Part shown: positions 2,887-8,390 of the stretch, piece by piece
Position numbering within the stretch: the first letter of the stretch is position 1
How the letters are laid out: each line of letters starts with the position of its first letter
Assembly: GCA_020072845.1 (NCBI GenBank)
Contig: JAIQGF010000009.1
Span: forward strand, 124,001 to 188,000
From: Terriglobia bacterium
GTDB taxonomy: Bacteria; Acidobacteriota; Terriglobia; Terriglobales; Acidobacteriaceae
Direction: 5' to 3'
Length of the DNA: 64,000 bases
The notes under the pieces: model-generated
The model's database searches: none
What the model was told of the DNA's origin: nothing
Seen by the model: only the letters and a program-made list of their open reading frames with translations
Program-made: the position numbers and the translations under genes

Positions 2887-5277
2887 ATGCGTATTGTGGC
2901 GCGGCTGATCGGCTGCCTGGTGCTCTGCGTTCTGCTGGTGTCGGTGTTCTCGTCGTACTACCAGGCGGAGCGGGAGAGGTTGGTGCTGCGCCAGGAACTG
3001 GAGCATCGCGCCGATGCACTGGCGGAGAGCCTGCAGCCGCGGGTCGAATCCATGTTGCACCGCGGCGACAAGGCCGGCATTCAGCGGCTGGCCGTGCAAT
3101 TTGCCAACCAGAAGCAACTCGCCGGACTTGCGGTGTACGGCGAAAGCGGCGGCCCGGTAGCGATCTCGGCATCGTTGGTGGGGCAGATTGCGGGGCGGCC
3201 CGAAACGCTTGCGAAGGCCATGCATGAAGACATGCCGCAGGGAGCATTCTTGCGCCTCAACGGCCATCCGGTCCACTTCCGCGCTATCCCCCTCCACGAA
3301 GATGACCATGTCGCGGGTGGTTTGCTGGTGGTGCACGACGCCGCTTACATCGTCGCCGCGCGATGGCAGGCGTGGCGGGACATGTCGTGGCGCGTCCTGG
3401 CGCAGGTGCTCCTGATCATCCTGACCACGGTGATCATGTTCGAGCGCAGCGTGGTGAAACCCATTGCGCGTACCGCGGCCTGGATGCGCGAACTGCGCCA
3501 CGGACGCAATCCCGGCGCGTCCGGCCTGGCCGGCTCCGATGATGTTCTGAAACCCCTCGCCAACGAGGCGCATAACTTTGCGCGCAGCCTGGCGGAGGCG
3601 CGCGCTTCGGCGGAGCGGGAAGCCCGGATGCGCGAAACGGCGGAATCGTCGTGGACGGCGGAGCGCCTGGCGGTCTCGCTGCGCACCCGCTTGCAGGGAA
3701 GCCGCCTGTTCGTGATCTCCAACCGCGAGCCCTACATGCACACCCGCAAGGGGAACCTGCTGCAGACGATGGTGCCGGCCAGCGGCCTGGTCACCGCGCT
3801 GGAGCCCATCCTGCGCGCCTGCGACGGCACCTGGATCGCCCACGGCAGCGGCGACGCCGACCAGGAGACGGTGGACGCCAACCAATGCGTCCGCGTTCCC
3901 CCGGAGGACCCGCATTACACCCTGCGGCGGGTCTGGCTGACGAAAGAGGAGGAAGAACGGTATTACTACGGGTTTTCCAATGAAGGGCTATGGCCGCTTT
4001 GTCATATTGCGCACACCCGGCCGACGTTTCGCGCCGCCGATTTTGAGGAGTACCAGCGCGTCAACCAGAAATTCGCCGACGCGCTCTGGGACGAGATGCG
4101 CGGCGTGGAGCAACCGATCGTGGTCGTCCAGGATTATCACTTCGCGTTGCTGCCGCGGATGATCAAGCAGCGGCGTCCGGACGCGCGGGTCGGCGTGTTT
4201 TGGCACATCCCGTGGCCGAACCCGGAGGCGTTCGGCATTTGTCCGTGGCAAGCCGAGTTGCTCGACGGACTGCTGGGGGCGGACCTGGTCGGGTTCCATA
4301 TCCAGGCGCATTGCGACAATTTCCTGGAAACCGTGGACCGCGTCCTGGAATCGCGCATCGAGTGGGACCGCAGGAACGTGAATCGCGGCGAGCACATGAC
4401 CATGGTGCGGCCGTTTCCCATCAGCATTGTGATGCCTCCGGTCACCGAGCAGGAGGAGAAACCCAACCCGCACCAGCAGCAGGCGGAGCTGCTGCAGGAA
4501 ATCGGCGTGGACGCGCTCTACATCGGTCTCGGCGTGGACCGCATGGATTACACCAAGGGCATCGTGGAACGCATGCTGGCCGTGGAACGGTTCTTGGAGA
4601 AGTACCCGCAGAACCAGGGGCGGTTCAGCTTCGTACAGATCGGCGCTCCCAGCCGCACTCATATCCAGCGCTACCACGACTTCATGGGCGAGGTGGCGGC
4701 CACGGCGGAGCGCATCAACCGGCGCTTTCGGTCGGGAAAATGGCAGCCGATCATCCTCCGCGACCGCCATCACACCCACGCCGAACTGGAGCGGTTCTAC
4801 CGCGCCGCCGACGTCTGCCTGGTGACTTCGCTGCACGATGGCATGAACCTGGTGGCCAAGGAATATATCGCGTCACGAGATGACGACGAGGGTGTACTTG
4901 TCCTCAGTCCCTTCACCGGGGCGGCGCGCGAGCTGCCCGACGCCCTCATCGTCAACCCCTACGACACCGAGAAGCTGGCCGACGCCATTTACCAGGCGCT
5001 GGAGATGGAAGGCACGGAACGGCGGGCGCGCATGCGCCGCATGCGCCAGGTGGTGCGGCAGCACAACGTGTACCGCTGGGCGGCCAACCTGATCGGCGAG
5101 TTGTGCGACGTGCGCCTGGATCTGGCCGCTCCGCCGCGAAAGCCGGCGCTAGCCGCGGGTGTGGCGCAGGGCGTAGCGCCCGAGGTCGTTGTCGAGAAGC
5201 TGCCCGATCAGCTCCGCCACTCCGGCGCCATGAGCGGAAGCGGTAACCAGGGCGGCGTTTCGCTTGATCTGCGGTAG
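2887..5277 (+). CDS. otsA: Membrane-anchored trehalose-6-phosphate synthase (GT20)
   Basis: The protein has 796 residues against about 470 for ordinary OtsA. The first 270 residues are an added sensor-like module: a transmembrane helix at about 4-24, a periplasmic stretch to about 160, a second helix at about 165-187, then a HAMP-like linker with heptads. The GT20 catalytic domain runs from about 278 to 755 and keeps the family signatures: [38 protein letters not shown] (arginine and lysine for the donor phosphates) and [13 protein letters not shown]. It makes trehalose-6-phosphate from UDP-glucose and glucose-6-phosphate. The start has GAGGGG upstream. The last 40 residues lie opposite the HAD gene and look like antisense-derived tail. 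Confidence 0.93.
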
Positions 5278-5850
5278 GGCGTTGGCCACCGCCGCGGCAC
5301 AGCCGCACGCGGCGAGCATGCTGGCGTCGTTTTCCGCGTCGCCGATCCCGACCACGTTGGCGGGCGCCAGTTGCAGTTCGGCGAGCGCCGCTTCCAGGCC
5401 GGTCTTCTTGTCCACGCCCGTGGGAAGAATCATCAGGGAGCCCTTGTTCAGGATGATGTGGACGTCGAGGGCGAGATTCAGTTCGTGAATCGCCGAGGCC
5501 ACCGCGGCGTGGTGGGCGTCGTCGGTGGCAACGATCGCGCGCCCGGTAGAGTACGGAACTTCGCGGCCGCGCAACGCGGCCAGCAGCCTGGGATCAGGCG
5601 GGCCGCATAACGCGATTTCCTGGTTCGACGAAGGCCGGAACAGCAACGCGCCGTTCTCGGCGACGATGCGGTCAAAGAGCGCTGCTTCCGGGAAAGCATT
5701 CTGCAGGTCGTGCAGCTCGCGTCCGGTCACCAGCAAGAGTTTGCGGCCGGAGGCGCGCAACCGGTCCAGCGCCGGAAGCACGATGCCGTCAACTCGGCCG
5801 TGGGTGGCCAGCGTTCCGTCGTAATCGGTGGCAAGCGCAAGAAAGCGCAT
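5149..5850 (-). CDS. HAD-IIB family phosphatase
   Basis: The protein starts at MRFLALATDYDGTLA (ATG 5850) and has 233 residues. DYDGTLA is HAD motif I, LLVTGRE motif II, and VGIGDAENDASML motif IV; the cap region fits the Cof/sucrose-phosphatase (IIB) subtype. Such enzymes dephosphorylate sugar phosphates. The gene is convergent with the trehalose-6-phosphate synthase and overlaps its 3' end by 129 bp, which suggests (inference) that it is the missing trehalose-6-phosphate phosphatase or controls the same pool. It is not a canonical OtsB by motif. Upstream of the ATG lies the left arm of a heptanucleotide array, so longer in-frame starts are rejected. Confidence 0.85.
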   Translation of the reverse strand: MRFLALATDYDGTLATHGRVDGIVLPALDRLRASGRKLLLVTGRELHDLQNAFPEAALFDRIVAENGALLFRPSSNQEIALCGPPDPRLLAALRGREVPYSTGRAIVATDDAHHAAVASAIHELNLALDVHIILNKGSLMILPTGVDKKTGLEAALAELQLAPANVVGIGDAENDASMLAACGCAAAVANALPQIKRNAALVTASAHGAGVAELIGQLLDNDLGRYALRHTRG

Positions 5851-5884
5851 GGCGGATTGGATGCCAGAAAAAGCAAATTCATTG

Positions 5885-5913
5885 CTGATTGTCGATTGTC
5901 GATTGCCGATTTT
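5885..5913. repeat. Heptanucleotide array, left arm (GATTGTC type)
   Basis: Tandem 7-mers GATTGTC, GATTGTC, GATTGCC, GATTTTC. Positions 5888-5913 are the exact reverse complement of 6380-6405, giving 26-bp perfect inverted arms around the four-helix-bundle gene. Confidence 0.85.
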
Positions 5914-6026
5914 CAAATCAATCTTGCCGATTAGGGAATCGCAAGTATTCACGGCGACATTTTCCATTGAGAACGCCCAGATATCTCGCTTAACCTCATT
6001 AGTTCTCCATTGTTGCGGAGGTGAAC

Positions 6027-6425
6027 ATGGGGGCACAAGCCGAGCAGCTGAAGCAAAGGACCAAGGAATTTGCCGTTCGGGTGGTCCGCGTGGTCGAAGC
6101 CCTGCCGCGAAAACCCAGCGCCAGTGTCATTGGCCGCCAAGTGCTTAGGTCCGCGACGTCAGTTGCAGCAAACTACCGCGCCGCGTGCCGTTCCCGCTCT
6201 CGTGACGAATTTGTCGCAAAACTGGGAATTGTGATCGAAGAAGCGGACGAGACGACTTTCTGGCTCGAAATGCTGGTGGATACCGGCTTGGTGCCGCCCA
6301 AGCGCATGGCGCAGCTCATTGACGAAGCAAACCAACTGGTCGCGATCTTTACCGCTTCGAAACGAACGGCGGAGGCGGCAAAATCGGCAATCGACAATCG
6401 ACAATCGGAAATGGTTTTGCCTTAG
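6027..6425 (+). CDS. Four-helix-bundle protein (S23/23S intervening-sequence type)
   Basis: The protein has 132 residues. The ATG at 6027 follows GGAGG by 5 nt. It has the family core: KQRTKEFAVRVVRVVEALP, then RQVLRSATSVAANYRAA, then a helix with EEADETTFWLEML and a last helix with EANQLVAIF. The family (first seen in 23S rRNA intervening sequences) has no proven enzymatic role and may bind RNA or proteins. The final 15 residues (SAIDNRQSEMVLP) are encoded by the right repeat arm, so the 3' end of the gene has been extended or rewritten by the repeat. The gene lies between 26-bp inverted arms and 7 nt before osmC. Confidence 0.8.
   Translation: MGAQAEQLKQRTKEFAVRVVRVVEALPRKPSASVIGRQVLRSATSVAANYRAACRSRSRDEFVAKLGIVIEEADETTFWLEMLVDTGLVPPKRMAQLIDEANQLVAIFTASKRTAEAAKSAIDNRQSEMVLP
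6380..6408. repeat. Heptanucleotide array, right arm
   Basis: Units AATCGGC, AATCGAC, AATCGAC, AATCGG inside the 3' end of the four-helix-bundle gene, followed by AAATGGTTTTGC. The same suffix follows related arrays at 25032 and 29336. Confidence 0.85.
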
Positions 6426-6432
6426 GAGGAAA

Positions 6433-6843
6433 ATGACAATGGTAACTGCCTCCGCATCGTGGACCGATGGGGAACGATTCGTGGGGGTCGCCAGCAGCGG
6501 GCACGCGATTGTCGTGGATGCCGCCAAGGACAAAACCGGACCGAGCCCGATGGAACTGGTGCTCATCGGCCTGTGCGGCTGCACCGCCAGCGATGTCGTC
6601 GGCATTCTGCGCAAGAAGCGCGAGCCGTTCACGCGCCTGGAAGTCAGCGCCGAGGCGGAGCGCGCGCCCCAGCCTCCGGCGGTCTACACCTCCATCAAGC
6701 TGCGCTACCGCGTCGCCGGCAAAGTCTCGCGCAAGTCGGTCGAGGACGCGGTCCGCCTGTCCAAGGAGAAGTACTGCTCGGTCTCGCAAATGCTGGGCAA
6801 GACGGCGAAGATTACGTCGGAGATCGAGGTCCTGCCGGGGTGA
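6433..6843 (+). CDS. OsmC family peroxiredoxin-like protein (YhfA type)
   Basis: The protein has 136 residues, the normal size. The ATG at 6433 follows a strong AGGAGGA. It has a cysteine in GLCGCTASDV and a second in KEKYCSVSQML, matching the two redox cysteines of OsmC/Ohr relatives; the second motif is typical of the YhfA branch. These cytosolic dimers reduce organic hydroperoxides with thiols or serve in general stress. The next gene is a glutaredoxin-like protein with a probable selenocysteine, so the pair may work in thiol redox defence. A cysteine-to-Sec change is not present in this gene. Confidence 0.88.
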   Translation: MTMVTASASWTDGERFVGVASSGHAIVVDAAKDKTGPSPMELVLIGLCGCTASDVVGILRKKREPFTRLEVSAEAERAPQPPAVYTSIKLRYRVAGKVSRKSVEDAVRLSKEKYCSVSQMLGKTAKITSEIEVLPG

Positions 6844-6944: not shown

Positions 6945-7184
6945 ATGCCAAAAAATGTCGTCATCTTCACGCAACCGGGTTGACCGCCGTGCCGCACCGC
7001 CAAGGCCTACCTCTCGGCGAGAGGTATCGAGTACGAGGACCGCGATGTGTCGGTGGACGCACAGGCGGTAAACGACTTGGTCCACAAGTACCAGAGCCGC
7101 TCGACGCCGACGCTGGTGATCGGCGAAGAGGTGATGATCGGATTCGATCCCGACCGCCTGGACGAGTTGATGATGGGCGACTAG
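6945..7184 (+). CDS. Glutaredoxin-like protein, probable selenoprotein (in-frame UGA in UPPC)
   Basis: Reading from ATG 6945 gives MPKNVVIFTQPG, then TGA at 6981-6983, then PPCRTAKAYLSARG and a normal glutaredoxin fold to TAG at 7182-7184 (79 residues). The TGA is exactly at the first cysteine of the CxxC redox motif, so reading it as selenocysteine gives U-P-P-C. The rest of the frame is intact: a SRSTPTLVIG segment carries the conserved cis-proline, and GFDPDRLDELM closes the domain. A perfect 8-bp hairpin lies 24 nt after the TGA. Known Sec-containing thioredoxin-fold proteins replace this same residue. The alternative is a single TGC-to-TGA nonsense mutation. No strong ribosome site precedes the ATG. 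A terminator follows at 7211. Confidence 0.75.
7008..7026 (+). promoter_or_regulatory. Candidate bacterial SECIS hairpin
   Basis: TACCTCTC-GGC-GAGAGGTA is a perfect 8-bp stem with a GGC loop inside the glutaredoxin reading frame. The stem begins 24 nt after the UGA and the loop 32 nt after it. Known bacterial SECIS elements lie immediately 3' of the UGA, with an apical loop about 16-37 nt away and a G among its first two bases; both hold here. SelB binding is inferred. Confidence 0.65.
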
Positions 7185-7210: not shown

Positions 7211-7234
7211 GGCACGGTGTGAGCCGTGCCTTTT
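7211..7234 (+). terminator. Rho-independent terminator after the glutaredoxin gene
   Basis: GGCACGG, loop TGTGAG, CCGTGCC, then TTTT. It lies 26 nt after the TAG of the selenoprotein candidate, which supports that reading frame being a complete transcription unit. Confidence 0.75.
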
Positions 7235-7244
7235 GTGTTGGACG

Positions 7245-7277
7245 CAGTCGACGGTCGATGGTCGATGGTCGACGGCC
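7245..7277. repeat. Heptanucleotide array (CGATGGT type)
   Basis: Units CGACGGT, CGATGGT, CGATGGT, CGACGGC directly upstream of the EamA transporter start. A related unit recurs at 16433-16584. Confidence 0.75.
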
Positions 7278-7299: not shown

Positions 7300-8286
7300 G
7301 TGAAAACGGAGATCGCAAACGCCGAATCGCGACTGCCGCCCAGTGGCGCTCATGCGGCCCACCCCGTTCGCGGCTACGTGTTCATCGCGGCGGCGGCGTT
7401 GTGTTGGGGAATTTCGGCATCGCTGGGAAGGGCAGCGTTCACCGGCCGGCTGGTCACGGGGCAGGCGCTGCCGCCGATCGGACCGCTGATTCTGGCGCAG
7501 ACGCGCGTCACGCTGGCCTTGCTGGTGCTCGCGCCCGTTCTGCTGGCGCGGCGGCGAGCGGCGGGGCTGAAGATGTCGCGCGCCGACCTAGTGCGCGCAC
7601 TGCTGATCGGCGTCCTCGGCGTGGCGGCCTCGAATTATTTCTATTACCTCGCGATCCAGAAGACCAACGTCGCCACCGCCATCATCCTGCAATACACCGC
7701 GCCGGTGTGCGTACTGCTGTACATGGTGGCGCGGGGCGTGCAGAAGGCGACGGCGTCGCGCGTATTCTCCGTCGCGCTGGCGGTGGTGGGCAGTGCTCTC
7801 GCCATCGGCGCCGTGGGCACAGGCCAGTTCCGCATCAATCCGATCGGGGTAGCGGCAGGCATGGCCGCGGCACTGTCATTTGCGTACTACAACATTTTTA
7901 TTCCGCCGCTGCTCAAGCGGCACGACCGTTGGAAGGTGCTGCTCTACATTCTGATCGGCTCGGCGCTGTGCTGGCTTGTGATCAACCCGCCGTGGCGAAT
8001 CATCGCCGGGCACTACTCGCGGGCGCAGTGGGCATTTCTGGCGGTGTTCTCGGTGACCTCGGTGCTGCTGCCGTTTTCGTTTTACATTGCAGGATTGCAG
8101 CACCTGGATGCCACCCGCGCCATCGTGACCAGTTGCCTGGAGCCGGTGTTCTCCATCCTGATCGCCGCCCTGACGCTGGGCGAACTGGTGCGCGGGGTGC
8201 AGGTGGTGGGAATCGTGGTGGTGCTGACGGGCACGGTGCTGGTGCAACTCTCGGGGAAAGAGGAGATGGTGGAGCCGATAGAGTGA
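7300..8286 (+). CDS. EamA/DMT family transporter
   Basis: The protein has 328 residues, with about ten hydrophobic helices arranged as two EamA repeats (about 27-155 and 170-320). Typical signs are the first helix AAAALCWGISASLGR, the SNYFYYLAIQKTNVATAIILQYTAPV stretch around helix 4, and LEPVFSILIAALTLGE near the end of the second repeat. It probably exports an amino acid or another small metabolite across the inner membrane; the substrate cannot be read from the sequence. The start is a GTG at 7300 with no clear ribosome site, just behind a heptanucleotide array. The gene is followed by a long inverted array shared with the convergent MFS gene. Confidence 0.85.
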   Translation: MKTEIANAESRLPPSGAHAAHPVRGYVFIAAAALCWGISASLGRAAFTGRLVTGQALPPIGPLILAQTRVTLALLVLAPVLLARRRAAGLKMSRADLVRALLIGVLGVAASNYFYYLAIQKTNVATAIILQYTAPVCVLLYMVARGVQKATASRVFSVALAVVGSALAIGAVGTGQFRINPIGVAAGMAAALSFAYYNIFIPPLLKRHDRWKVLLYILIGSALCWLVINPPWRIIAGHYSRAQWAFLAVFSVTSVLLPFSFYIAGLQHLDATRAIVTSCLEPVFSILIAALTLGELVRGVQVVGIVVVLTGTVLVQLSGKEEMVEPIE

Positions 8287-8386
8287 TTTGTAATTTGCAA
8301 TTTGTAATTTGCAATTGTTCTGTCGCGGCAGTGTCCAGAACCTGGAAATTACAAATTACAAATTACAAATTACCAATTACAAATTC
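8285..8386. repeat. Inverted heptanucleotide arms (AATTTGC type) between convergent genes
   Basis: Left arm 8285-8316 has AATTTGC/AATTTGT units; right arm 8345-8386 has ACAAATT-type units in the opposite sense, with a 28-bp spacer. The arms can pair as a long AT-rich stem between the convergent eamA and MFS stops. It could act as a bidirectional terminator. Confidence 0.8.
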
Positions 8387-8390
8387 GGGA

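Follow-up and report, generated by a model that had tools for sequence, protein, structure and literature searches.

A glutaredoxin gene with an in-frame TGA

The 64,000-nucleotide stretch of Terriglobia DNA analyzed here (the window) contains a short glutaredoxin gene crossed by an in-frame TGA and lying between an OsmC-family gene and an EamA-family transporter gene. The features of this locus are the following:

6433–6843, + strand: OsmC-family gene, upstream, with TGA as its own stop codon (PF02566, 69.7 bits, cut-off 27.5)
6945–7184, + strand: putative selenocysteine (Sec)-containing glutaredoxin gene, 79 residues, U13-P-P-C16, stop codon TAG (Pfam and AlphaFold2)
6981–6983, + strand: in-frame TGA, the inferred selenocysteine codon (of 146 distinct loci classified, 83 have TGA here)
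7008–7026, + strand: predicted SECIS hairpin (covariation in 33 Sec-form sequences, synonymous-shuffle null, codon bias)
7211–7234, + strand: hairpin and T run resembling an intrinsic terminator (by eye; the scan gives 7216–7230, near chance)
7300–8286, + strand: EamA-family transporter gene, downstream (PF00892, 106.7 bits)

From the ATG at 6945 to the TAG at 7182–7184, the frame is open once the TGA codon at 6981–6983, which encodes the first residue of the U-P-P-C motif, is read through. The window protein matches the Pfam family Glutaredoxin (PF00462) with 54.1 bits against a cut-off of 22.9, in agreement with an earlier reading of the letters alone (the sequence-only reading), which had placed the TGA at the first cysteine of a redox motif with the glutaredoxin intact on both sides. 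An AlphaFold2 model, computed with Sec as Cys from a 20-row alignment, has a mean pLDDT of 94.0 and the order beta-alpha-beta-alpha-beta-beta-alpha; the nearest solved structures are the BC3987 thioredoxin-like protein and dithiol cGrx1 (TM by query length 0.86–0.89). The score above the gathering cut-off and the thioredoxin-like fold, seen in the model and with Foldseek, place the protein in PF00462. Genes of this kind, which lack an ordinary open frame, are easily omitted by annotation.

Downstream of the TAG, where the sequence-only reading had seen a terminator, a GGCACGG-loop-CCGTGCC-TTTT element was recognized by eye at 7211–7234. The hairpin and T run are present, but a terminator scan of the whole stretch gave two such sites against 0.7 ± 0.9 in shuffles, and because this count is near the shuffle level, the element is weak evidence. 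Short repeated units were also noticed by eye in the intergenic stretches at 7243–7275 and 8288–8390.

A candidate SECIS hairpin downstream of the TGA

The perfect 8-bp stem that the sequence-only reading had described at 7008–7026 is present, TACCTCTC (7008–7015) pairing with GAGAGGTA (7019–7026) around a GGC loop at 7016–7018. Counted from the TGA, the stem starts after 24 nt and the loop after 32 nt. As outlined in an excerpt of PMC13188914, the bSECIS model asks for a loop of 3–9 nt, a stem of 4–16 bp, a G at loop position 1 or 2, and a loop 16–37 nt after the UGA, this spacing being measured to the loop. The window hairpin has this geometry (8 bp, GGC loop, 32 nt); since the 16–37 nt limit runs to the loop, the earlier claim that a stem starting 24 nt after the TGA falls in the bacterial range holds.

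In 100,000 synonymous-codon shuffles of the window gene, an 8-bp stem with a G loop arose in the same register at a frequency of 4e-5; for any position allowed by the published bSECIS spacing, the frequency was 3.9e-4. The fold energy of 6981–7040 does not stand out (z −0.59; equalled or bettered by 52 of 200 shuffles): this 60-nt stretch reaches −19.1 kcal/mol, a value for the whole stretch with the stem included and not for the hairpin alone, where the bSECIS energy criterion is −7.5 kcal/mol or lower. The case for the hairpin thus rests on comparison and not on energy. The Rfam search gave no family at threshold, the best of four chance-level matches having an E value of 0.81.

Selenocysteine machinery in the window genome and its relatives

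Profile searches of the window genome, which is related to named Terriglobia (Acidobacteriota), found selA (563.7 bits), selB (364.7 bits), and selD (352 bits over two parts), and a tRNA-Sec was identified with 66.8 bits and the anticodon TCA by ARAGORN. The sequence-only reading had named these four genes as the ones to look for and a lack of selB and tRNA-Sec as grounds for rejecting it; the full set of SelA, SelB, SelD, and tRNA-Sec was found. The selD gene itself (L053, G000:C11:217393–218031) carries an in-frame TGA, in the form G-U-A-S-K, and a GGC-loop hairpin was seen by eye in the fold 20 nt after that TGA; on these features, selD is itself a predicted selenoprotein gene. In G001, a genome of the same genus, the stretch is the same as in contigs L055 and L056, which are named Terriglobia bacterium isolate SRVP_22.

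The window genome and 60 relatives were then compared (61 genomes). Intact TGA-bearing homologs occur in 21 of them, the window genome included, the motif being UPPC in 18 (19 loci) and UMFC or UIFC in 3. Each of these 21 genomes has selB above the cut-off or a tRNA-Sec above 60 bits, a threshold of our own choosing, set because tRNA-Ser genes reach the family cut-off. Taken separately, selB was found in 20/21 and tRNA-Sec in 19/21, the misses (selB in G001, tRNA-Sec in G004 and G010) all being in draft assemblies. No Sec form was found in the 13 genomes having neither gene, while 27/61 have machinery with the glutaredoxin gene absent or in the Cys form. The association between Sec form and machinery has a hypergeometric probability of 0.0018 over the 61 genomes and 0.00074 for the 37 genomes of the family (9 having neither gene, 18 Sec-form), kinship being ignored in both. 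Among individual genomes, G020, a single contig with neither selB nor tRNA-Sec, has a Cys form and no hairpin, and G035 has both selB and tRNA-Sec, yet also a Cys form without hairpin.

Two further loci were observed in this set. The Cys ortholog L031, in G032 (tRNA-Sec 76.1 bits, no selB above the cut-off), retains the hairpin in the position found in the window gene (register A below), which is likely a fossil SECIS after a recent loss of Sec in that genome. L047 (G017:C107) is a decayed UPPC copy with several stops in which the register-A stem is still there (score 6.3); the same genome also has an intact UMFC gene, L038 (G017:C221), with the second type of hairpin (register B).

Two hairpin registers in one gene family

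Homologous loci were collected and 172 were classified, of which 146 are distinct over a 147-nt stretch. Left out before the counts were the decayed L047, in which the motif was not found, and four further loci in which it was not found either, namely L105 (starts too late), L132 (not placed), and L121 and L122 (no U or C at this place); the classification also omits the distant Cys loci L040–L045. At the position of the TGA codon, 83 distinct loci have U and 63 have C; a third residue is absent from these counts because only U or C loci were taken, and the U:C share is not a natural frequency because the searches were seeded mostly with Sec forms. An in-frame UGA aligned with the Cys of homologs, one of the criteria for a bacterial selenoprotein, is therefore found in this family.

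Hairpins were scored in two positions, register A with the loop 32 nt and register B with the loop 23 nt after the UGA, and a register label was given at a score of at least 5. A hairpin in one or the other is present in 79 of the 83 Sec forms (A only in 32, B only in 44, both in 3, neither in 4). Among the 63 Cys forms, 60 have no hairpin, 2 have register A, and 1 has register B; the score of one Cys form, L112, is meaningless because a frameshift put the reading at the wrong place. Within the clade of the window (52 rows, with a weak support of 83/84), the hairpin is missing in 19 of 20 Cys forms, the exception being L031. L079 was considered as a carrier of both hairpins and rejected, as it has register B only.

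Scores of at least 6 were reached by 32/32 register-A genes, against 0.14% expected from synonymous-codon shuffles and partly by selection, as the labels required a score of at least 5 there, and by 45/47 register-B genes (0.74% expected). The same score was reached by one Cys form in register A and by none in register B, and anywhere in the published spacing by 7 of the 63 (4.7% expected).

The pairing of register A was followed in 33 Sec-form sequences, including L061 (identical in L171), a stretch with a C-A mismatch in its stem. Paired cells amount to 93.9%, against at most 70.8% when the pattern is slid, and four of the eight pairs have changed on both sides, mostly in the 6-bp core; the second outer pair is unpaired in 13/33 sequences. 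The covariation score was reached in 0/500 shuffles, while the number of pairs changed on both sides (16/500) and the number of further pair types (98/500) were not extreme. For register B (47 sequences), 92.8% of the cells are paired and six pairs have changed on both sides. In the crossed tests, register B applied to the A sequences paired 54.2%, and register A applied to the B sequences paired 70.7% against 53.5–61.2% for the slides, with a paired share and covariation score reached in 13/500 shuffles. The loops also differ, being GGN in 33/33 register-A and GUN in 46/47 register-B sequences. The expectation that orthologs would show U or C at the TGA position, the U forms sharing a covarying hairpin, is thus borne out.

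Codon choice points the same way. Codons of the hairpin vary less at the third position than codons outside it (Mann-Whitney 0.005 for A and 0.0003 for B), with the last hairpin codon of each register as the exception. In the A set, 24/28 sequences have AGA for Arg +13, a codon used for 1 of the 104 other Arg residues of these genes; Ser +11 is TCG in 30/30, compared with 19/122 elsewhere. Outside the hairpin, the third base of Ser +38 (window 7095–7097) is invariant in 33/33 register-A sequences, and this codon is AGC in all 19 sequences of a smaller comparison.

Reading of the TGA

Taken together, the gene anatomy, the machinery, and the conservation lead us to infer selenocysteine insertion, and it is highly probable that 6945–7184 is an intact glutaredoxin-family selenoprotein gene whose UGA would be decoded through SelB and the GGC-loop hairpin. 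The sequence-only reading of a probable selenoprotein is supported, with the machinery, the U and C orthologs, and a covarying hairpin all in place; the two registers of the wider family go beyond what that reading noted. Alternatively, a Cys glutaredoxin could be decaying, the TGA being a nonsense mutation and the hairpin a product of chance, a history to which the decayed L047 of G017 and the unremarkable fold energy of the stretch would be suited. The sequence-only reading had taken further lesions in close relatives as the mark of a pseudogene; that one decayed copy exists, but intact TGA-bearing orthologs are common, the shared TGA codon extends over several phyla, the hairpins covary and are missing in nearly all Cys forms of the clade, and the protein columns 3′ of the TGA remain conserved in the alignment of homologs. 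Decay of a Cys gene is accordingly very improbable, and we rejected it together with a chance hairpin. There is just as little to recommend a UGA read as another amino acid, whether at this codon or through TGA reassignment in general. That the inserted residue is Sec is a deduction here, and the left-out L121 and L122 lack both U and C at this place, but the near orthologs without TGA have Cys, the genome encodes a Sec-type tRNA with the anticodon TCA along with SelA, SelB, and SelD, and general reassignment is unlikely, and was rejected, because the adjacent OsmC gene terminates at TGA.

Relation between the two registers

The two hairpins share the Leu-Ser codons, which supply the 3′ arm of the register-B hairpin and, with a different pairing partner, the 5′ arm of the register-A hairpin. 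Register B was seen in loci from Chloroflexota, Bacillota, Actinomycetota, and Acidobacteriota. All register-A loci seen here come from the window's family and order or are named Acidobacteriota relatives; the same class holds five UPPC forms with register B (L185, L186, L187, L189, and L190). Among the 47 register-B genes, 10 have a latent register-A pairing (score of at least 4), where 1.57 would be expected with all codons shuffled and 10.16 with the central arm kept. As the observed number equals the latter expectation, latent register-A hairpins appear to be a by-product of register B, which makes a move by exchange of arms plausible. Three genes scoring at least 5 in both registers (L088, L131, and L151) were considered as selected intermediates and rejected, since 3/47, against 0.42 expected with all codons shuffled, is not above the 5.13 expected with the central arm kept.

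We see an even chance that the SECIS moved by nine nucleotides (three codons) within one gene family through such an exchange. In the ancestral state, with a GUN loop 23 nt after the UGA, the Leu-Ser codons CTTTC/CTCTC would have provided the 3′ arm; by pairing with the Arg/Lys-Gly codons downstream, they would then have turned into the 5′ arm of a hairpin with a GGN loop at 32 nt. A short version of the new pairing is already present in about one fifth of the old-type genes, which could have offered a path without loss of recoding. That Sec was instead gained separately, the window's clade descending from a Cys form and building a new hairpin at +32, falls just short of an even chance. Most register-A rows have a 16-row Cys group as their near sister. 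The trees are short of columns and leave many forks open, and a single register-A clade is not rejected yet not shown (p-AU 0.584 with nested Cys rows and 0.767 when the Acidobacteriaceae Cys rows were also included, both from quick trees with 23 of the 146 rows left out for long or odd branches). The constrained tree beat the free tree in both tests, so the tree search was not exhaustive, and a tree without the hairpin-encoded residues (65 columns) gave no resolution. Speaking against separate gains are the spread of register B over four phyla, the five UPPC register-B forms within the same class, and the register-A pairing already latent in register-B genes.

The two registers make this family a natural experiment on the movement of a bacterial SECIS inside coding sequence, and they bear on what SelB needs, pointing to a G-led loop within a range of spacings rather than at a fixed place.

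Genomic neighborhood and proposed function

The Pfam match of the upstream gene confirms the OsmC neighbor noted in the sequence-only reading. OsmC lies upstream in 26/32 register-A loci; two of the misses have a short stretch (L179) or a nearby contig end (L065), while in L022, L025, L035, and L169 the flank is present and OsmC absent. The EamA transporter lies downstream in 30/32 (misses L030 and L035), and the Cys forms L031, L196, and L197 retain both neighbors. Neither was found in the 47 register-B loci, many of whose stretches have only 300 bases of flank. Just upstream of OsmC, 6021–6425 encodes a 23S rRNA-intervening sequence protein (PF05635), matched in only 2 of the 146 loci besides the window's own. 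Further upstream, at 2887–6036, a glycosyltransferase family 20 gene (+) faces a HAD-type hydrolase gene (−), presumably a pair of the trehalose synthesis type.

Bound to the hairpin with its GGC loop at +32, SelB with Sec-tRNA-Sec would place selenocysteine first in the UPPC active site of an enzyme predicted to reduce disulfides. The catalytic cysteines of OsmC-type peroxidases need a dithiol reductant. From this chemistry and the gene order, the likeliest partner reduced by the window protein would be an OsmC-type peroxidase. The clade is a well-supported Sec-glutaredoxin group in Acidobacteriota, and the partnership with its OsmC neighbor is testable.

Comparison with known systems

Dithiol cGrx1, which we take to be the Sec-glutaredoxin of Clostridium (Alkaliphilus) sp. 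OhILAs in its Cys version, is close to the window protein in structure and in sequence (PDB 7c10, 7c12, and 7c13; profile match 72.2 bits, TM 0.87, 37% identity). The second active-site Cys of cGrx1 is residue 16 (entry title C16S), as is C16 in the window protein. The best NCBIfam match is the YruB-family glutaredoxin-like profile TIGR02196, whose cut-off of 88.55 bits lies just above the score of 87.8, so that the protein falls outside this family. The UXX-star selenoproteins are likewise small glutaredoxin-like selenoproteins by name and profile, and their cut-offs were not reached either (NF041212, 58.5/66; NF041114, 30.7/72; NF041211, 43.8/100; NF047338, 33.4/97).

Sec-glutaredoxin (Grx, PF00462, UxxC) is a listed family in the excerpts of PMC13188914, PMC9312934, PMC1794560, and PMC1088965, and an excerpt of PMC1794560 counts four selenoproteins in three families for Acidobacteria; the main text of PMC5029168 mentions neither glutaredoxin nor "Acidobacteri". 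Among the matches listed in a literature search by title, none concerned the window's Sec-glutaredoxin clade or a relocation or register change of a SECIS, though titles alone leave room for an earlier report.

The window protein shares with the known Grx selenoprotein the glutaredoxin fold, the Sec in first position of UxxC near the N-terminus, and the SECIS just downstream. It differs in its UPPC motif, in belonging to an Acidobacteriota clade with mostly conserved OsmC and EamA neighbors, and in its loop at +32, compared with +23 in the other Sec relatives found here. The window protein is a new member of an already known Sec-glutaredoxin family, and the two-register SECIS of its relatives and itself is the less expected part.
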